64,000 nt of DNA from Cellulophaga sp. HaHa_2_95 (lineage in GTDB: Bacteria > Bacteroidota > Bacteroidia > Flavobacteriales > Flavobacteriaceae): positions 1,240,001 to 1,304,000 of the forward strand of contig NZ_CP058988.1 of the NCBI RefSeq assembly GCF_019278565.1, given 5' to 3'. Below, piece by piece: positions 50,893 through 58,775 of this stretch; positions within the stretch are counted from its first letter, which is position 1; each line of letters starts with the position of its first letter. The notes under the pieces were generated by a model. It did no database searches. It saw only the letters and a program-made list of their open reading frames with translations, and was not told the origin of the DNA. The translations under genes and the position numbers were made by a program.

Positions 50893-51119
50893 GATACCGT
50901 TTCCTTTAATTTATTTTTCATCGCTTCTTTCTCCGTCTCCGACAAATTACTAAGCTTCGCTTTATCACATAGAGACGTAAGCACAGCATTTTTTTTAGAG
51001 TGAACAGAACAGGCTTTACAAATAAGAATATGAAATTTAAGCTTTACCTTTTCGTAAAAAGTAGCTTCGTCATATTGGGCTTTGTTGCAAATAACTGCAG
51101 CTTTATCACAAGAAATCAT
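50889..51119 (-). CDS. Small cysteine-rich protein, probable anti-sigma factor
   Basis: A 76-residue soluble protein. HILICKACSVHSKKN (about 30-44) is an HxxxCxxC zinc-type motif like that of zinc-binding anti-sigma factors, and Cys4, Cys11 and Cys51 add more cysteines. It overlaps the end of the ECF sigma gene by 4 bases (ATGA), a classic sigma/anti-sigma coupling. It has no membrane segment, so a cytoplasmic, redox-sensitive type is the likely class. No close family was recognised. Confidence 0.65.
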   Translation of the reverse strand: MISCDKAAVICNKAQYDEATFYEKVKLKFHILICKACSVHSKKNAVLTSLCDKAKLSNLSETEKEAMKNKLKETVS

Positions 51120-51676
51120 ATATTAAACCAATTTTGATTAAGGCAATCCATCAAGGCCGTTCTTGACCTATGTATCATTACCCAAAGATTTGACGGATTA
51201 ATTTCCAATTCATTACAAATATCTTCAGTACTTATTCCTTGAATTGTTTTCATTTTAAAAACTTGTCCTTGTTTTTTTGGTAATTTGCTGATGCAATTAT
51301 GGATAGCAGAACCTAGTTCTTCATTTTCAATACCGTCATTTTCTAAAATGCTATAAGGATCTGCTACTTGCTCTTCTAGCCAATCACCATCGCTATCTAC
51401 ACTAGAGTTGTAGGTCATTCGTACTTCGGCTTTACCCTTGTTCGAATTAATTTTTCGATAATGATCAATAACTTTTCGTTTAAGGATAGAGATGAGCCAA
51501 GTACGCTCAGCAGCTTCTCCTTTAAAATTTTTAGCAGATTTTAATCCGGCTAAAAAAGTTTCTTGTACAATGTCTTTGGCTATTTCGGCATCACTAACAC
51601 GAATTACGGCGTAGTTAAACAAGTAATCTGCATATTGATCAACCCATGTGTCTGGATGCAATGAATGTGAAGTCAT
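51116..51676 (-). CDS. ECF-family RNA polymerase sigma factor
   Basis: A 186-residue ECF sigma factor (start ATG at 51674-51676, MTSHSLHPDTWV; a TTG 21 bases upstream is part of the promoter). Region 2 lies at about 10-75 (DYLFNYAVIRVSDAEIAKDI, TWLISILKRKVIDHYRK) and region 4 at about 115-170 (LPKKQGQVFKMKTIQGISTEDICNELEINPSNLWVMIHRSRTALM). A small cysteine-rich partner is coupled to its end, so it is probably released in response to a redox or metal signal. Confidence 0.9.
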   Translation of the reverse strand: MTSHSLHPDTWVDQYADYLFNYAVIRVSDAEIAKDIVQETFLAGLKSAKNFKGEAAERTWLISILKRKVIDHYRKINSNKGKAEVRMTYNSSVDSDGDWLEEQVADPYSILENDGIENEELGSAIHNCISKLPKKQGQVFKMKTIQGISTEDICNELEINPSNLWVMIHRSRTALMDCLNQNWFNI

Positions 51677-51694
51677 AAACTTTTTTAGTAGTTT

Positions 51695-51722
51695 CAAATT
51701 TACCGAATTTTTTTAACAACAA
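51695..51722 (-). promoter_or_regulatory. Promoter of the sigma/anti-sigma pair
   Basis: On the minus strand, TTG (51722-51720) and TAAATTTG (51702-51695) are 17 bases apart, and the start codon follows 18 bases after the -7 box. This is a good housekeeping-type promoter. Confidence 0.55.
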
Positions 51723-52111: not shown

Positions 52112-53020
52112 TTATATTAATTCCTTTAGAGCACTTTCTATCGTGTTATATTTAAATTTGAATCCTGCGTCGTTTAGTTTTTGAGGAAGTACATTTCTGC
52201 TTTTTAAAATTAATTCTGTTTCTGTCTGGATTATTTTTGCTCCTATTTCCAAAAGAAATTTAGGTAAAGGAATGCCAAAGGGTATGTTTAGTTGCTTGCG
52301 AATGCTTTTCATCAAAATAGCATTGGTAACAGGTTCTGGTGCAACACAGTTCACAGCGCCAATTAAGTGGTCGTTTTTAATTATAAAGTTGATGCTCTCT
52401 AGAAAATCATTGATGTGAATCCAACTAAATTGCTGATTTCCTTTTCCTTGTGTTCCTCCAAACCCAATTTTTGCAAGTTTTACGATGGGCACTAAGGCCC
52501 CACCATGGGTCGCCAAGACAATAGAAGTGCGTAAGGCTACTTTCCGCGTGTTTGGTGTCGTTCTTGTATAAAATGCTTCTTCCCAAGCTTTAGCAACAGT
52601 TACAGAGAACCCTGTGCCAATTTCTCCTGTTTCCTCTGTCATTTCCTGGTTTAGCGCGTGCCTATAGATAGTAGCCGTAGAAGAATTTATCCACACTTTT
52701 GGTGGGTGTTTACTTTTAGAAATTACTTCACCCAATATTTTGGTTGCGTCTACACGAGAATCCATAATTAGTTTTTTATTTTCTGGGGTGTACCGGCAAT
52801 CTACAGAGCGCCCTGCCATATTGATCAGCACCTCACAAGATGTAAATTCTTCTTTCCAAGGCCCAAGGGTTTTGCCATCCCAAGTTACATAGCGACAGCC
52901 ATTTTTGATTTCGGTAGCACCTCGGGTAAGAATAACAATATCCGTAAATTTTGAAGCAAAATAGGTAGCAATCTCTTTTCCTAGAAAACCAGAACCGCCA
53001 GCAATAATCAATTTTTTCAT
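52112..53020 (-). CDS. TIGR01777-family epimerase/NAD-dependent sugar epimerase-like protein
   Basis: The start is the ATG at 53018-53020 (MKKLIIAGGSGFLG); the upstream extension runs into the methyltransferase. The 302-residue Rossmann-fold protein has GGSGFLG (8-14), the conserved NMAGRSVDCRYTPENKKLIMDSR block and LRTSIVLATHGGAL, typical of the TIGR01777 family (DUF1731 C-terminal domain). Related proteins bind nucleotide cofactors; the substrate is unknown. It is the last gene of the regulator-headed operon. Confidence 0.88.
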   Translation of the reverse strand: MKKLIIAGGSGFLGKEIATYFASKFTDIVILTRGATEIKNGCRYVTWDGKTLGPWKEEFTSCEVLINMAGRSVDCRYTPENKKLIMDSRVDATKILGEVISKSKHPPKVWINSSTATIYRHALNQEMTEETGEIGTGFSVTVAKAWEEAFYTRTTPNTRKVALRTSIVLATHGGALVPIVKLAKIGFGGTQGKGNQQFSWIHINDFLESINFIIKNDHLIGAVNCVAPEPVTNAILMKSIRKQLNIPFGIPLPKFLLEIGAKIIQTETELILKSRNVLPQKLNDAGFKFKYNTIESALKELI

Positions 53021-53027
53021 CGATAAT

Positions 53028-53915
53028 TTATTTCGTACAGGTGATGATATAATAACCGAAGCTACGCATATGTAAGCCAGATAATAAAGCAAAGAAAGAT
53101 CCTTTTAAATTGTGATAGCTTTCTTTTTTTAAGTGCTTATTTTGGAATATGCTTTTTAAAGCAAAGCCAATGATAGCAAAAGGCACATGAAGTACAGAAG
53201 GGGCAACTCTAAAGGAAGCATCTTCTACTTCTACTTTAGAAAATCCTAGATCTTTTAATTCTTGAACAATCGTAGTTAGTGTTCCCAGTCTTTCCAAACT
53301 CCAGTGGTTGCATAGTTTTTGGTAGGCATATTTACCACCATGACATAGATCTTCTTCCTTAATTTTCAAAAAGGCATCTGCAATCACCAGTTTTCCATTT
53401 GGTTTTAAAATACGATACGCCTCTTTAAAAGATTGGCTGCTGTGCCCGGAGTGGCAAAAGCTTTCTATGGCGGTGGCAGCATCAAAAAAATTGGATTGGA
53501 AAGATGTGTGGTTGTAATTTTCTTTAAGGATAACTCCCTTCATTTTTTTTAGCAACTCATTCCCTTTCGCCACCTGAAAATTGGATAAGGTGACTCCAAA
53601 GGCTGTTAGTTTGTGGTGTTTTTTTAGCGCATATCGCATCGTGCCGCCCATACCACAGCCTAAATCTGCAAGTGTGTTTTTTGAATTAGAAAGGTCTAAT
53701 TTTTTAAGTACCTGATTATTCATCTCATTCAGCATGGAATCTCTTTTGAAGGGGTTGGTTTTAAAAGGGATAAAATAGCCAAAATGCATGTTATAATCAG
53801 TACTCCAAAACTTATAATCTGCCGTGGCACCATTATAAAAACGGACCATCTCCATGCTGTTTTGTGAAGTTTCGGGGGCTGTAATTTCTGTTATACTTAG
53901 TAGCGTAGTTTCCAT
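53028..53915 (-). CDS. SAM-dependent methyltransferase, cyclopropane/sterol-methyltransferase-like
   Basis: A 295-residue class I methyltransferase. FYNGATADYKFWSTDYNMHFGYF (about 27-49) and DLGCGMGGTMRYALKK (about 84-99) resemble the sterol/tocopherol/mycolic-acid methyltransferase group. The C-terminal half is hydrophobic and may associate with the membrane. A lipid substrate is therefore likely. It is 7 bases before the TIGR01777-family gene and shares the operon of the GbsR/MarR-type regulator. Confidence 0.85.
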   Translation of the reverse strand: METTLLSITEITAPETSQNSMEMVRFYNGATADYKFWSTDYNMHFGYFIPFKTNPFKRDSMLNEMNNQVLKKLDLSNSKNTLADLGCGMGGTMRYALKKHHKLTAFGVTLSNFQVAKGNELLKKMKGVILKENYNHTSFQSNFFDAATAIESFCHSGHSSQSFKEAYRILKPNGKLVIADAFLKIKEEDLCHGGKYAYQKLCNHWSLERLGTLTTIVQELKDLGFSKVEVEDASFRVAPSVLHVPFAIIGFALKSIFQNKHLKKESYHNLKGSFFALLSGLHMRSFGYYIITCTK

Positions 53916-53925
53916 AGAGGTGCTT

Positions 53926-54366
53926 TTAAAGATTAAAAAATTGAATACAGTTGATGATTAGTAACCAAGTAAATACGACAGCAAAAAGCGTGAAGAGGCC
54001 GTTCATGAAATACCCACCAATTCTAAAGAGTGCTTTTTTAGGAATTTCATACATAGGATAGTACGCAACTTGCGTGGCTACTTTTCCGATCCAATAGGCG
54101 GCTATTAATCCCGTAATAGCAATAGCAAGTTTACTGCCATTCTGTAATTCTGCGGTCAATAAAATAGCCATTAACCCAAAAGAAAAGTTTAAGCCTTGAA
54201 TATACCTGCCATAGGTTTTTGCTATTTCTTGGTTTAGGGGTTTTAATTGTTTTACATCCGTATACCAATCAAAAACTCTATGGCGTATGTAAGGGTAAAT
54301 TAATGCGGTAAATATTTGGCCTAAGCCTCCAATGATAATGAGCCAATTTGGAACGTTATATTTCAT
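53926..54366 (-). CDS. Four-span membrane protein of unknown function
   Basis: A 146-residue protein with four hydrophobic segments (about 6-24, 53-71, 77-97 and 120-142) and a charged loop after the first. No motif or family was recognised. It is 10 bases before the methyltransferase start on the same strand. A perfect palindrome (54383-54404) lies 17 bases upstream of its ATG. Confidence 0.7.
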   Translation of the reverse strand: MKYNVPNWLIIIGGLGQIFTALIYPYIRHRVFDWYTDVKQLKPLNQEIAKTYGRYIQGLNFSFGLMAILLTAELQNGSKLAIAITGLIAAYWIGKVATQVAYYPMYEIPKKALFRIGGYFMNGLFTLFAVVFTWLLIINCIQFFNL

Positions 54367-54382
54367 AATTTATATATTTAGA

Positions 54383-54404
54383 ACTTTCAGAAAATACTGA
54401 AAGT
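54383..54404. promoter_or_regulatory. Operator-like palindrome before the four-span membrane protein
   Basis: ACTTTCAG-AAAATA-CTGAAAGT, a perfect 8-bp inverted repeat and an instance of ACTTTCA-N8-TGAAAGT. It is embedded in a roughly 50-base sequence nearly identical to the intergenic region at 54807-54858. It lies inside the operon, so it may be an operator for an internal promoter or, as RNA, a hairpin. Confidence 0.55.
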
Positions 54405-54419
54405 ATAATTTAAATTTTT

Positions 54420-54806
54420 TTACTTAAGGTTTTCAGTAGCATCTTCGGTTTTAGAGCTGGTTAAAACGAGCATTTCGTTTTTTAGTGTTTTTGTGATGTA
54501 TACAAAGTAGGCCGCTAAAGCCATAGGAATTACAGCTAAATAGATCCATATTAAAAGCTCGTCAGGATTTAAATTGCTGTTGGAAAAAATAAGGAGTAAG
54601 AGGAGGTAGGGAATGACGTAAGACCAATACGTTCGAATAGCTTTATGAACTAAGCCATTTTTATTCATTTGATAGGTGAGATACAGGGCAATTAGTACCT
54701 GTAGTATTCCTAAAATAAATTGAGCTATTAATCCACCGAAAATGGTAATGTAAAGTAGGACTGTTATGGTAAAACTCCAGGTATTTACGGTGTGTAATAT
54801 TTTCAT
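54420..54806 (-). CDS. Four-span membrane protein of unknown function
   Basis: A 128-residue hydrophobic protein with about four membrane segments (TITVLLYITIFGGLIAQFIL, ILQVLIALYLTYQM, YVIPYLLLLLIF, LIWIYLAVIPMALAAYF) and a charged cytoplasmic tail. It is unrelated in sequence to the next gene. No family was recognised. Its upstream palindrome lies 17 bases before the ATG, as in its neighbour. Confidence 0.7.
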   Translation of the reverse strand: MKILHTVNTWSFTITVLLYITIFGGLIAQFILGILQVLIALYLTYQMNKNGLVHKAIRTYWSYVIPYLLLLLIFSNSNLNPDELLIWIYLAVIPMALAAYFVYITKTLKNEMLVLTSSKTEDATENLK

Positions 54807-54822
54807 AATTTATATATTTAGA

Positions 54823-54844
54823 ACTTTCAAAAAATACTGAAAGT
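54823..54844. promoter_or_regulatory. Operator-like palindrome before the second membrane protein
   Basis: ACTTTCA-N8-TGAAAGT, the same half-sites and spacing as at 54383-54404 and 55389-55410. Flanks on both sides (TTTCATAATTTATATATTTA and AAATTAAATTTTTT-like) are shared with the first internal copy. Confidence 0.55.
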
Positions 54845-54858
54845 TTAAATTAAATTTT

Positions 54859-55362
54859 TTATTTAAAAATTTTGAATATTGATTTTGTTAACCAGTTTTG
54901 ATTTTGGTTCACTAATTTGTTCAACATCATATCGGCAGTATCGGCCAAATCATGCAAAGCCTTAGTTTGTTTAATCAACTCTCTAGTTTTTTCAGTACCG
55001 TCATCTTTAATCGTAGAAACTTCTTTAAGTGTTTTTATAACAGGTTGAATTTCTCTGCGGCTACGTTCTTTGGCAATAACTCGGGCCAATTCTTGTACAT
55101 CTTTCTCTGTCGTAAAATATTCTTTACGCTCCCCAGGTACCAGCTCTTTGGTAACAATACCCCAATCTATCAACTGGCGTACATTCATGCTTGTATTGCC
55201 TCTAGAAATCTGAAGCTCTTCCATGATCTCTTCTGTAGACAAGGGTTTAGTAGCTATAAAAAGCAAGGCTTGTATCTGTGCCATGGCTTTATTAATACCC
55301 CATAGCGTACCTAAACTACCCCATGTACTAATGAATTTATCTTTTGCCTCTTTGTATTCCAT
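54859..55362 (-). CDS. GbsR/MarR-type winged-helix transcriptional regulator
   Basis: A 167-residue DNA-binding protein. The N-terminus EYKEAKDKFISTWGSLGTLWGINKAMAQ and the wHTH (IMEELQISRGNTSMNVRQLIDWGIVTKELVPGERKEYF) match the GbsR branch of the MarR family. A C-terminal helical domain (about 95-160) is for dimerisation. Its own promoter is overlapped by an ACTTTCA-N8-TGAAAGT palindrome, and the same palindrome recurs in the operon, which supports autoregulation by this protein. The inducer is unknown. Confidence 0.88.
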   Translation of the reverse strand: MEYKEAKDKFISTWGSLGTLWGINKAMAQIQALLFIATKPLSTEEIMEELQISRGNTSMNVRQLIDWGIVTKELVPGERKEYFTTEKDVQELARVIAKERSRREIQPVIKTLKEVSTIKDDGTEKTRELIKQTKALHDLADTADMMLNKLVNQNQNWLTKSIFKIFK

Positions 55363-55366
55363 GAAG

Positions 55367-55396
55367 CAAAGATATACATTATTTTTAAACTTTCAA
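55367..55396 (-). promoter_or_regulatory. Promoter of the GbsR/MarR-type regulator operon
   Basis: On the minus strand, TTG (55396-55394) and TATCTTTG (55374-55367) are exactly 19 bases apart, and the start codon begins only 4 bases after the -7 box. Transcription probably begins at or next to the ATG. The -33 TTG lies inside the palindrome at 55389-55410. Confidence 0.65.
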
Positions 55397-55410
55397 TAAT
55401 TTGTGAAAGT
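55389..55410. promoter_or_regulatory. Autoregulatory operator of the GbsR/MarR-type regulator
   Basis: AAACTTTCA (55387-55395), an 8-base spacer, then TGAAAGTTT (55404-55412). It covers the -33 element, so a bound dimer would block RNA polymerase. It is the same site as the two internal copies in the operon. Confidence 0.65.
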
Positions 55411-55578
55411 TTATTTATAGAAAGGCTATTTACGGTATTATAAGGTGGTTATGTACTAATTCGTAAGCTTAGGTCGTTCTATTTTAGAATTTAATAGCGA
55501 ATATCCCTTAAAACAGGGTATTGTAGTCAAAAACAAGCTGTTAACTTGCATTTCATTAAAAGTAACGAACCAAACAAC

Positions 55579-55788
55579 ATGTCAAATCCTTTTAAGAAAA
55601 TAACAACAAATGCAGAGACTTCTAAAAGTGCCATGCATACGCGAGGGCAACAAACCGAAACGAGTACAAGTTCTGAGAGTTGTAAAACTTGTGGCGCACC
55701 ACGGCCAAAAAAAACAAATTTGGTAACCTGTGATTATTGTAGGCAACCTTTTATGGCACATGTTAATTTTTTTAAAGAAGACTCTTAG
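55579..55788 (+). CDS. Small zinc-ribbon protein
   Basis: The start is the ATG at 55579 (MSNPFKKITTN); a TTG in frame at 55546 adds only a short unlikely peptide. The 69-residue product has a disordered Ser/Thr-rich N-terminus and a zinc-ribbon, CKTCGAPRPKKTNLVTCDYC (CxxC...CxxC), at about 35-54. It is 3 bases before the next gene. As in other small zinc-ribbon proteins, its function is unknown; it opens the SPFH operon. Confidence 0.7.
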   Translation: MSNPFKKITTNAETSKSAMHTRGQQTETSTSSESCKTCGAPRPKKTNLVTCDYCRQPFMAHVNFFKEDS

Positions 55789-55791
55789 ACT

Positions 55792-56568
55792 ATGGCAAGC
55801 AAAGAAGAACTAATACAACGTTGGGATTCCTTTTTACAAAAAATAGAAGTCCGCTTTAATGAATCTTTAGGGCATGCAGAAGAAGCCTGTCATGAGCAAT
55901 TAGTAGCGACCAATTATGAATATGACACGGTGATGCGTTCTTGGAGCGGTATGAAAGCACAAGTACATGTATTGATAGAGAAAATTGATGAGGTATGGGA
56001 CGGAAAAGTAGCGCCAGAAATGGAAGCCTTGGGCGATTTTGCGCAGGACGAAGGAAATAAAGCTTATGATTTAAGCCATAAGCTGCTATATTCTTTGGAA
56101 GATTTTCAACGAAAATTAGAAGGAGAACTTTCGCAAAAATTTTATGATCATGCCATACAAGTCGCTAATAAAAAAGCATCCTGTAGCCAGTGTAATGCCG
56201 ATTTAGAGATTAAAAAAGACATTTTCAGGGCACAATATATTTCTTGCACATTTTGTAATACGGTAAATACAATTGCCCCAGAGACTAAGTTTATAAAAAT
56301 AGGTTGGGGTATTGTAGATCATATAGCGGCATTGAAAACTACACCTCAATATAAGGCCATGACTGCAGCAGAAGAAGCTATTAGGGCCTATAGAGGCAAA
56401 GCACCCGAATCTTTTTGGACAGATTATTACAAGGTTTACAACACCTATTGGAGTGCCTATTTTACAGAACGGATGGCTTTGAATACAGATTTGAAAAAAA
56501 GGTATGATTCAGACATGGCACGGAAACATAAAGAATTTGAAAATTTTAAAGAAATACAAACCAAATAA
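55792..56568 (+). CDS. Helical protein with C-terminal zinc ribbon
   Basis: A 258-residue soluble protein, mostly charged and helical (coiled-coil tendency at about 5-45 and 105-125). It carries a zinc-ribbon-like set of cysteines: C131-x2-C134 and C152-x2-C155 (CSQC ... CTFC). No family was recognised. It belongs to a six-gene operon with an SPFH protein. The helices and zinc site suggest a scaffold or regulator role, but this is inference. Confidence 0.65.
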   Translation: MASKEELIQRWDSFLQKIEVRFNESLGHAEEACHEQLVATNYEYDTVMRSWSGMKAQVHVLIEKIDEVWDGKVAPEMEALGDFAQDEGNKAYDLSHKLLYSLEDFQRKLEGELSQKFYDHAIQVANKKASCSQCNADLEIKKDIFRAQYISCTFCNTVNTIAPETKFIKIGWGIVDHIAALKTTPQYKAMTAAEEAIRAYRGKAPESFWTDYYKVYNTYWSAYFTERMALNTDLKKRYDSDMARKHKEFENFKEIQTK

Positions 56569-56579
56569 ATACTAAAATT

Positions 56580-57143
56580 ATGGAAGCAATAAATGGAGTA
56601 ACTTTTGAAGATTGGGGTGCCGCCAGTGGTAATATCGCTATGGGAATGAGCGCCGAAGAGGTCTGTGAAATATTAGGAATTGAACTTCCTGTATGGCAAA
56701 AGACAAATGAAGAGTGGGGTGGCAAATTAGGCGATTTAATGGCGCAGGATATGTCTATTGCTACTACCTATGGTGGGTATTTTACCAATCCGAAAGTAGG
56801 GAAGTTTGCAGGGGTAAATTCAGCCGTACCTTCGTTAGCATCGCTCTTAGAAAAAGTGCCAGATTTTGACGCCTACCAGAAAATATTCAACCATCAGTCG
56901 GCAGCCTCTGAGCATGGTCATGATCCTGTCTCTGCCTTAGAGCAATATGGTTTTAATCTGCAAGAATGGTCACAGATAAGCATGCATTATTCTACGTGGT
57001 CTAATGAGTATTTAAACCCTAACGGTGCGGAATATGAACAACGATTCAGAGAAATATCTGCTATTATGGATAAGTGGAGTCAGTACTGGAAAGAAAACTT
57101 TAAAGAGGATGCTGTTGATTTAGGTGGCGATATTGATTTTTAA
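56580..57143 (+). CDS. Conserved helical protein of the SPFH operon (DUF6620-like)
   Basis: A 187-residue soluble protein with an opening EAINGVTFEDWGAASGNIAM and a repeated tryptophan/aspartate-rich pattern (ELPVWQKTNEEWGGKL, NLQEWSQISMHYSTW, MDKWSQYWKENF). It resembles the family I recall as DUF6620; this should be checked against Pfam. No catalytic motif is visible. It is 20 bases before the SPFH gene and probably forms a complex with the other products. Confidence 0.55.
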   Translation: MEAINGVTFEDWGAASGNIAMGMSAEEVCEILGIELPVWQKTNEEWGGKLGDLMAQDMSIATTYGGYFTNPKVGKFAGVNSAVPSLASLLEKVPDFDAYQKIFNHQSAASEHGHDPVSALEQYGFNLQEWSQISMHYSTWSNEYLNPNGAEYEQRFREISAIMDKWSQYWKENFKEDAVDLGGDIDF

Positions 57144-57163
57144 ACACGAATAAAACAACAAGT

Positions 57164-58150
57164 ATGGATTTTAAAAAGCAAATGCGTTCAGTTATTCAAT
57201 GGGAAGATCCCAAAGATTACCAACTGTTTTTCAAATTTACCGATAGGGGTGATGAGCTAAAAAATGCCTCTAAATTAATTCTACAACCGGGACAAGGGTG
57301 TATTTTTACCTACGAAGGTAAAATTGAAGGATTTTTTGAAACGGAAGGTATTTACGATTTAAAAACATCGAATACTCCTTTTTGGACCACCATTAAAAAG
57401 TTTATGAACGCTTTTGAAAGTGAACATAAAACAGGGCTTTGGTTTTACAGAAAGGCGGAGTTATTAAATGTACGTTGGGGAACAAGAATTCCTATCACCT
57501 ATAATGATCCGGTCTATAGTTTTCCTGTAAAACTTAGAGCTTATGGTAATTATTCTCTGCGGATTACCAATGCAAAAGAATTTTTTATCAACATTTTAGC
57601 GGGCCAGACAGATTATTTTGTAGACCAATTGCAAGAAGTATTTCTATCGCGTATTACACAGCCCATTTCATCTTACTTAGCCAATGCTAAGTTCTCTTAC
57701 GCAGAAATAGATGGACATATAGAAACCATTGCGCAGCAGGCACAACTAAAAACAACTGAAATCTTTGAAAAGCTAGGCTTTCAATTAACAGATTTTAGAA
57801 TAGAAGGCACTTCGTTTGATCCAGAGACCAACAAACGGATTAGTGAAATTAGTGATGTACAAGCCGATGTTAATGCGGCAAGCATAGCGGGAATAGATTT
57901 TGCCGAACTACAAAGGTTGCGAGCCATGCGTGATGTTGCCAAGAATGAGGGAATGGCAGGAGCTAGTATGGGAATGCTTACCGGTATGGAAATGGGAAAA
58001 GCAATGAGTGGTACTACTGCTGCTCCGCAAGAAGCGCCTAAAAATAATATCAAAATAAAGCTTAAAGAACTCAAGGAACTTTTTGAAGAAGACTTAATTT
58101 CACAAGAAGAGTTTCAAGCTAAAAAGCAACAATTATTAGATCAATTATAA
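57164..58150 (+). CDS. SPFH-domain protein with C-terminal SHOCT-type tail
   Basis: A 328-residue protein. The SPFH (band 7) region is at about 30-230, with VKLRAYGNYSLRITNAKEFF and IDGHIETIAQQAQLKTTEIFEKLGFQLTDFRIE as the core. A short Gly/Met-rich segment (about 258-285) follows. The tail IKIKLKELKELFEEDLISQEE is a SHOCT-like helix pair. It resembles the YdjI-like SPFH proteins that are linked to membrane stress. No N-terminal membrane span is seen, so it may associate with membranes through the SPFH surface or partners. It is the central gene of the operon. Confidence 0.85.
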   Translation: MDFKKQMRSVIQWEDPKDYQLFFKFTDRGDELKNASKLILQPGQGCIFTYEGKIEGFFETEGIYDLKTSNTPFWTTIKKFMNAFESEHKTGLWFYRKAELLNVRWGTRIPITYNDPVYSFPVKLRAYGNYSLRITNAKEFFINILAGQTDYFVDQLQEVFLSRITQPISSYLANAKFSYAEIDGHIETIAQQAQLKTTEIFEKLGFQLTDFRIEGTSFDPETNKRISEISDVQADVNAASIAGIDFAELQRLRAMRDVAKNEGMAGASMGMLTGMEMGKAMSGTTAAPQEAPKNNIKIKLKELKELFEEDLISQEEFQAKKQQLLDQL

Positions 58151-58154
58151 ACAG

Positions 58155-58775
58155 ATGAAACAACTATTCTTATTTCTTTTTATCACACCTTTTGCTATGG
58201 CACAAGCTACTTTTGTTCCTGTAGAAAAAGAGCGTTTAGATACTTGGCTTACAGAAGCCAAAGAAAATGGTGAGGTAGACACAAAACAGTTGGAAAAATT
58301 AGATGCAGAATATGCAGATGTTTTAACAACACCTGCGAGTACCAATCGCATTTTTGATTATGGACGTATTCTTACTATAGCATTACAACCTGGTTTGGCA
58401 TCGGCGAGTGAAAAAGAACTTTCTGGTGCAGGTCAAAAAATTGTTGACGAGGCAGAGAAGGCATACCGAAATGCCATTAGCAATTGCGATTGCCATGGCC
58501 GTGCAAATATTATGTTGGGTCTGTTATATAATCAACAAGGTAAATATTATATCTCTGAACCTTATTTAGAAAAAGGCTTGGAATTAGAAGAAGGTGGGGA
58601 AGACTGGATGATTGCCGCTAATCAATATCTATTAGCGGGTGCCTATACCTATAATACCGCTGAAGAAAAATATGTAAAGGTGTATGAGCTTTTTAAAAAA
58701 TATGCTAAAACGGTCTCCAAAGATGCCGCCTATTATCAAAAAATGGCGGGTTTATATGTGAGCTATTATGAATAA
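58155..58775 (+). CDS. Secreted protein with helical repeats (TPR-like)
   Basis: A 206-residue protein with a signal peptide ending at MAQ (residue 17). The remaining sequence is mostly helical; ANIMLGLLYNQQGKYYISEPYLEKGLEL reads as a TPR-like repeat pair. It is probably periplasmic. It is 4 bases after the SPFH gene and overlaps the first possible ATG of the next gene. Confidence 0.7.
   Translation: MKQLFLFLFITPFAMAQATFVPVEKERLDTWLTEAKENGEVDTKQLEKLDAEYADVLTTPASTNRIFDYGRILTIALQPGLASASEKELSGAGQKIVDEAEKAYRNAISNCDCHGRANIMLGLLYNQQGKYYISEPYLEKGLELEEGGEDWMIAANQYLLAGAYTYNTAEEKYVKVYELFKKYAKTVSKDAAYYQKMAGLYVSYYE

Follow-up and report, generated by a model that had tools for sequence, protein, structure and literature searches.

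In an operon of Cellulophaga sp. HaHa_2_95, the palindrome ACTTTCA-N8-TGAAAGT occurs three times, upstream of a GbsR/MarR-type regulator gene and before each of the two genes that follow it. Comparison with related genomes indicates that these palindromes are almost certainly operators of the adjacent GbsR-type regulator. A chance origin of the three-site pattern is rejected on this comparative evidence, since both an upstream and an internal site are conserved and the exact site tracks the regulator.

Three exact palindromes in the regulator operon

The window, by which we mean the whole 64,000-nucleotide stretch analysed, carries on its minus strand an operon in the order regulator, 128-aa protein, 146-aa protein, CMAS-like methyltransferase and TIGR01777 oxidoreductase (Table 1). 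UP denotes the site upstream of the regulator, and INT the one that lies after the regulator's stop codon and ahead of the next gene. All three palindromes listed in the preliminary description are present with no mismatch. As it stated, their half-sites are identical and their spacing is 8 bases; the 8-base spacers themselves differ in sequence. Along the sequence, a distance of 10 bp, close to one helical turn, separates the CA and TG steps of the palindrome.

The UP site is separated from the regulator ATG by 26 bases. Placement of the internal sites 17 bases upstream of the next genes was likewise correct, with 16 bases between and the ATG beginning at base 17. The intergenic regions, said to be nearly identical, measure 52 and 53 bases and agree in 49 of 53 aligned columns, one column being a gap.

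Table 1. Features of the operon, with positions in the window.
Feature	Position	Strand	Remarks
UP operator (candidate)	55389..55410	-	contains the -33 TTG of the regulator promoter
INT operator 1 (candidate)	54823..54844	-	between the regulator stop and the 128-aa gene
INT operator 2 (candidate)	54383..54404	-	before the 146-aa gene
-7 box TATCTTTG	55367..55374	-	4 nt before the regulator ATG
AAAAAATTT tract before INT 1	54852..54860	-	starts within the regulator stop codon; read from sequence
GbsR/MarR-type regulator, 167 aa	54859..55362	-	domain and profile matches
128-aa hydrophobic (probable membrane) protein, cluster c11	54420..54806	-	ORF list
146-aa hydrophobic (probable membrane) protein, cluster c16	53926..54366	-	ORF list
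SAM-dependent methyltransferase, CMAS-like, cluster c12	53028..53915	-	Pfam Methyltransf_11 and CMAS
TIGR01777-family oxidoreductase, cluster c10	52112..53020	-	last gene of the cassette; NCBIfam TIGR01777 above cut-off

A genome scan for the palindrome, which had been suggested as a check, returned three exact copies in 4.54 Mb and none of the reversed control pattern. With up to two mismatches allowed, 43 places were found in the genome against 36 controls, so a second target is unsupported there. Candidates for a wider regulon were discarded: one single-mismatch site, at genome position 902923, sits inside a 528-codon open frame, and the other falls over a 199-codon open frame. In its own genome, the regulon is apparently confined to this single locus.

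The regulator matches Pfam MarR_2 (E 1.1e-9) and NCBIfam CudC (E 6.9e-15; 55 bits against a cut-off of 218), and a profile match to MJ223 (1ku9, E 3.7e-23) covers positions 4-150 of 167. By these matches, the protein carries the features of the GbsR family, a MarR-type DNA-binding domain and MJ223-like similarity over almost the whole regulator. Neither the 128-aa nor the 146-aa protein has a match in Pfam or NCBIfam at 1e-3. Genes for glycine betaine synthesis or Opu transport, with which the osmostress group of the family is associated, were found neither in the window operon by Pfam and NCBIfam nor among the scanned cassette representatives of relatives, which are a subset of the clusters.

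Some neighbouring features were also recorded. The TIGR01777 protein additionally matches the model for the thylakoid protein ThyD, below its cut-off. Past the cassette lies an ECF sigma factor gene (51116-51697), accompanied by a small partner with weak zinc-finger similarity. A divergent plus-strand cluster (55582-58775) encodes a DUF6620 protein (at cut-off), an SPFH/SHOCT protein and unmatched ORFs; the clusters of these genes occur in the window and in only 5-7 of the best 80 of 578 relatives.

Conservation of the upstream and internal sites

Among 199 genomes drawn evenly from Flavobacteriaceae, the regulator was found in 39. The exact site was present in 40 of the 199, comprising 33 of the 39 genomes that have the regulator and 7 of the 160 that lack it (Fisher p 9e-25). 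In 32 of those 33 it lies beside the regulator, and in G144 the match is elsewhere. The 199 genomes hold 58 exact matches, 49 next to the regulator and 9 elsewhere, as counted by hand from the match listings; the reversed pattern also gives 9 matches. Seven of the nine off-locus matches are well within open frames of more than 100 codons. In L053 and L202 the match (around base 1501) precedes a T run and stands at the very start of a stop-to-stop frame, so these two are probably intrinsic terminators between other genes. Six genomes have the regulator and no exact site: five carry near-exact copies (L009, L022, L031, L173 and L176), and in the sixth, L174, the contig ends before the gene and the internal core site is present.

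Individual loci were compared in the best 80 of 578 confirmed Flavobacteriaceae relatives, which include Cellulophaga, Gelidibacter, Algibacter, Winogradskyella, Psychroserpens, Lacinutrix and other genera, and were scored with the pattern TTTCA-N8-TGAAA. UP is present in 79 of these 80 loci (missing in L079) and INT in all 80, lying 127 nt past the stop codon in L082. Additional downstream copies comparable to INT 2 occur in seven of the 80 (L063, L066, L097, L116, L132, L133 and L139). Beyond the family, 20 loci were assigned to the same subfamily; UP is present in 18 of 20, and INT is present in 10 and missing in 9 of 19, one contig having ended. A longer GbsR-type subfamily (L193-L199), whose neighbour gene we take to be YraN-like from inspection by eye in three loci, has INT in none of its 7 loci, and one of the 7 matches a loose UP pattern within a G+C-rich stretch.

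The preliminary description proposed autoregulation and internal control by the same protein, and named orthologous operons without the palindrome as grounds for giving the idea up. The close relatives retain both sites, and the comparison supports the proposal, with INT extending to about half of the loci beyond the family.

Overlap of the upstream site with the regulator promoter

UP is an extended near-symmetric palindrome with a consensus of about TAAACTTTCAATAATTATTGAAAGTTTA. Of the 79 loci with UP among the best 80 of 578 relatives, 78 have a TAnnTTTG box after it; between the end of the box and the ATG there are 4 nt in 62 of the 78 and 3 nt in 6. The -33 TTG is part of UP in 66 of these 78 loci and missing from it in the other 12; the distance from TTG to box is 18, 19 and 20 nt in 43, 20 and 3 loci, respectively. 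In the window, the -33 TTG lies inside the palindrome as originally described, in the order TTG-N19-TATCTTTG-CTTC-ATG on the minus strand.

In Flavobacterium psychrophilum, the TAnnTTTG box occupies positions -12 to -5, and leaderless transcripts make up only 5.5% of mRNAs (PMC9723704, available part). Given that position, a box so near the ATG leads us to predict that the regulator mRNA is leaderless, starting at AUG, and the window matches this arrangement. The candidate operator overlaps what would be the regulator's own promoter. As an A/T-rich inverted repeat near a putatively regulated promoter, it also has the form of a GbsR-family operator.

The internal site and the tract before it

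INT keeps the half-sites, with C replacing T at position 15 in 86% of the best 80 of 578 relatives. It is asymmetric, its extension lying mostly on the right side; UP is near-symmetric. It is preceded by an A/T tract, commonly with TTTAAA-N3-4 in addition, and in 65 of the same 80 loci the first ATG follows within 14-18 nt.

The internal sites had been described as lacking a clear TAnnTTTG box. This is so in the window, and relatives agree: the box is absent within 100 bp upstream of all 79 first cassette genes in the best 80 of 578 relatives (shuffled expectation 3.6), in a test that covers the TAnnTTTG box only. In the same relatives, the same test finds the box for 75 of 77 regulators, 64 of 69 ECF sigma genes and 57 of 61 gcvP genes, and for 58/60, 48/69, 13/43, 8/65, 1/67 and 0/31 members of other gene clusters. 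When -7 boxes are scored with a matrix trained on UP, the best score averages -4.0 at INT versus -1.8 for shuffles. An internal sigma-A promoter at INT is therefore disfavoured. Low TAnnTTTG scores are common to the cassette and to genes that look operon-internal, so the cassette is most simply read as transcribed by read-through from the regulator promoter. Scans of 51-56 kb with E. coli-type models matched less often than in shuffles: promoter matches numbered 11 versus 17.0 in shuffles, and terminator matches 2 versus 3.5, both on the other strand.

Could INT instead be an operator over an internal promoter used by an unusual sigma factor, such as the ECF factor past the cassette, so that the cassette is regulated separately? 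The site has a conserved asymmetric core beyond the palindrome, TTTAAA-N3-4-ACTTTCA-ATwwTTTC-TGAAAGTTTAAA; 70 of 81 loci (the best 80 of 578 and the window) have an ECF sigma cluster further along; and a new promoter would be sensible where INT comes after a predicted terminator. Against this stand the missing box and the low -7 scores, the location of INT mostly 14-18 nt ahead of the first ATG, and an inspection by eye that saw no known ECF motif at INT. We consider such a promoter unlikely.

INT is, as far as the sequences indicate, an asymmetric element that goes with the A/T tract or, in some relatives, with a predicted terminator, a feature that the earlier reading had missed. An uninterrupted AnTm run of at least 8 in the 24 nt before INT occurs in 76 of the best 80 of 578 loci, a tally that excludes the window, against a shuffled expectation of 16. 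The same run is found in 26 of 28 further family loci (shuffled 6.0) and in 4 of 10 beyond the family (0.7). Over 118 INT loci, the longest run is of A in 83 and of T in 35. As a terminator we counted a hairpin no weaker than -4 kcal/mol and no more than about 6 nt from the tract; the 83 A-tract loci have none, and 17 of the 35 T-tract loci (17 of 118 overall) have one, 8 of the 10 loci beyond the family among them. These 17 relatives have the order regulator, predicted intrinsic terminator, candidate operator, cassette. The tract in the window is of the A type, and no terminator is predicted before its INT, so the terminator part of the model set out below does not apply to it. The idea that TTTAAA beside INT is an RNA arm pairing with the last codons of the regulator was dropped, as the 5' arm is not conserved by eye.

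Operator or RNA hairpin

A caveat in the preliminary description, that the internal copies may act as RNA hairpins, is disfavoured by the comparison. On such a reading, the internal palindromes would be mRNA hairpins controlling stability or translation. They can fold, each at about -9 kcal/mol (z -3.4 to -4.2), and they lie between cistrons, with a nearly constant spacing to the start codons. The promoter copy, however, is the same word with a similar fold (-8.7) and lies outside the predicted mRNA, and Rfam gave no match for 53800-55800 at E up to 1.

The stem pairs were then compared across the best 80 of 578 loci. Five core pairs are invariant and are uninformative for DNA versus RNA. Of the 80 INT loci, 16 have a broken pair 1 and 7 have T-T at pair 0, and neither pair shows a two-sided change. 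Pair 7 offers both A-T (9 loci) and G-C (7 loci), as a conserved stem might, but 62 of the 80 loci have no pairing there, and the 7 G-C combinations match the number for independent columns (about 7.8). The compensatory stem changes that mark a structured RNA were thus not seen in these 80 INT loci. Since the changes in the outer stem pairs are uncompensated, a DNA operator is favoured at INT, and we regard the hairpin as very improbable.

A variable cassette downstream of the internal site

INT is present whichever gene follows the regulator in the best 80 of 578 relatives. The first cassette position is filled by 13 sequence clusters over the 76 of these 80 loci that were scored, and several of these clusters consist of short membrane proteins and may be distantly related. 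Of the clusters represented in the window, c10 occurs in 39, c11 in 36, c12 in 33 and c16 in 19 of 81 loci (the best 80 of 578 and the window). Besides the ECF sigma gene counted above, a small gene with weak zinc-finger similarity lies downstream of the slot in 68 of the 81.

Domains in the scanned cassette representatives comprise fatty-acid desaturase, DUF2071, DoxX_3, DCC1-like, methyltransferases and TIGR01777; in one scan, 4 of 10 representatives had no domain match. This domain content suggests a role in membrane or lipid modification. Light or photo-oxidative stress was considered as a theme of the cassette, and a literature search gave nothing to back it. In C. tyrosinoxydans (L064), the 146-aa gene comes straight after the regulator. 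Together with the 49 identical intergenic columns, this gene order makes it likely that the 128-aa gene was inserted along with a copied INT element.

Proposed mechanism

We propose a model in which a GbsR-type autorepressor blocks access to its own promoter and also acts as a transcriptional roadblock at the cassette boundary, and we hold this model, taken as a whole, to be slightly favoured. The sequences themselves show where the sites lie and how well they are conserved, that INT has no sigma-A box, and that a tract or predicted terminator goes with it; from these we infer binding, repression, roadblocking and ligand release. A dimer on UP would cover the -33 region and keep RNA polymerase off the only recognisable promoter of the operon. 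A dimer on INT would halt or dislodge polymerase once it has passed through the regulator gene; a roadblock is proposed here because INT has no recognisable promoter. In some relatives, polymerase would be stopped on the T-tract of the predicted intrinsic terminator. The window has a second INT copy before the next gene (146-aa). A low level of regulator would thereby be maintained, and the membrane or lipid-enzyme cassette kept off until a ligand frees the regulator.

For the internal step by itself, operation of INT as a roadblock or terminator gate has, in our judgement, an even chance of being correct. A roadblock does not demand the near-constant distance from INT to the ATG (14-18 nt in 65 of the best 80 of 578 loci), which speaks against it. 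Also counted against the model are the 83 of 118 INT loci that have an A-tract without a terminator hairpin, the absence of INT from 9 of 19 and of UP from 2 of 20 loci beyond the family, and the 12 of 78 family loci whose UP holds no TTG.

A more far-reaching version is put forward tentatively. One repressor and one DNA word would control both initiation and elongation, with repressor-gated termination at the cistron boundary and INT serving as a portable cartridge. INT usually lies 7-11 bp past the A/T tract or the terminator T-tract, and polymerase would stall on the tract and be released. A polymerase halted by a protein at INT would, given its footprint size, sit roughly over the tract. 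If this is true, the INT cartridge let one chromosomal slot take different membrane or lipid cassettes across Bacteroidia with the regulator unchanged.

Joint binding of UP and INT by a tetramer, looping the regulator gene, would draw on the two or three sites being about 566 bp apart (565-567 bp in 53 of 79 loci among the best 80 of 578), but we think it highly unlikely, since that constancy follows from the fixed length of the regulator gene, the remaining distances run up to 587 bp (one 678) and fill all helical-phase bins, unevenly (R 0.50), and MarR-type proteins are usually dimers.

Comparison with known systems

Among the papers listed in searches of the open-licence literature, no title or abstract beginning reported this operator. 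The slot described here keeps its regulator and operators while the controlled genes change, and may thus offer a natural system for studies of repressor-gated elongation. For the Bacteroidetes sub-group of GbsR-type proteins, gene neighbourhoods gave no consistent picture in a survey (PMC6207618), whose available part assigns the group no role and yielded no operator for it. For that group, of the same family and phylum, the present analysis supplies a candidate operator word that also occurs outside the order, what looks like a regulon of one locus in the Cellulophaga genome studied, and a possible design of control in two steps; the shared operator pair and the variable cassette give a consistent neighbourhood here.

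Each step of the proposed control has a precedent in the available portions of earlier reports. The C.Kpn2I controller likewise combines promoter interference and an elongation roadblock in one small regulator (PMC6237814); it is, however, a restriction-modification controller whose roadblock site lies within its own coding region. In Chlamydia trachomatis trpRBA, an operator is likewise placed between the regulator gene and the structural genes, and bound repressor, YtgR, ends transcripts from the upstream promoter at this operator between trpR and trpBA (PMC6504234). The blocker there is YtgR rather than the operon's own TrpR, and the intergenic region has its own promoter. A parallel in regulator and operator type is Bacillus subtilis, where GbsR (gbsAB, opuB) and OpcR (opuB, opuC) belong to the same GbsR branch of MarR and have A/T-rich inverted-repeat operators (PMC7396694). 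OpcR occludes the -35 region and GbsR roadblocks downstream of the start site, so that two paralogues split the two modes, and their operators differ in sequence and spacer. The system described here, in contrast, would use one regulator and one word at both positions, in its own co-directional operon and with other target genes. The regulator family and the control modes are known; the widely conserved arrangement we take to be new.
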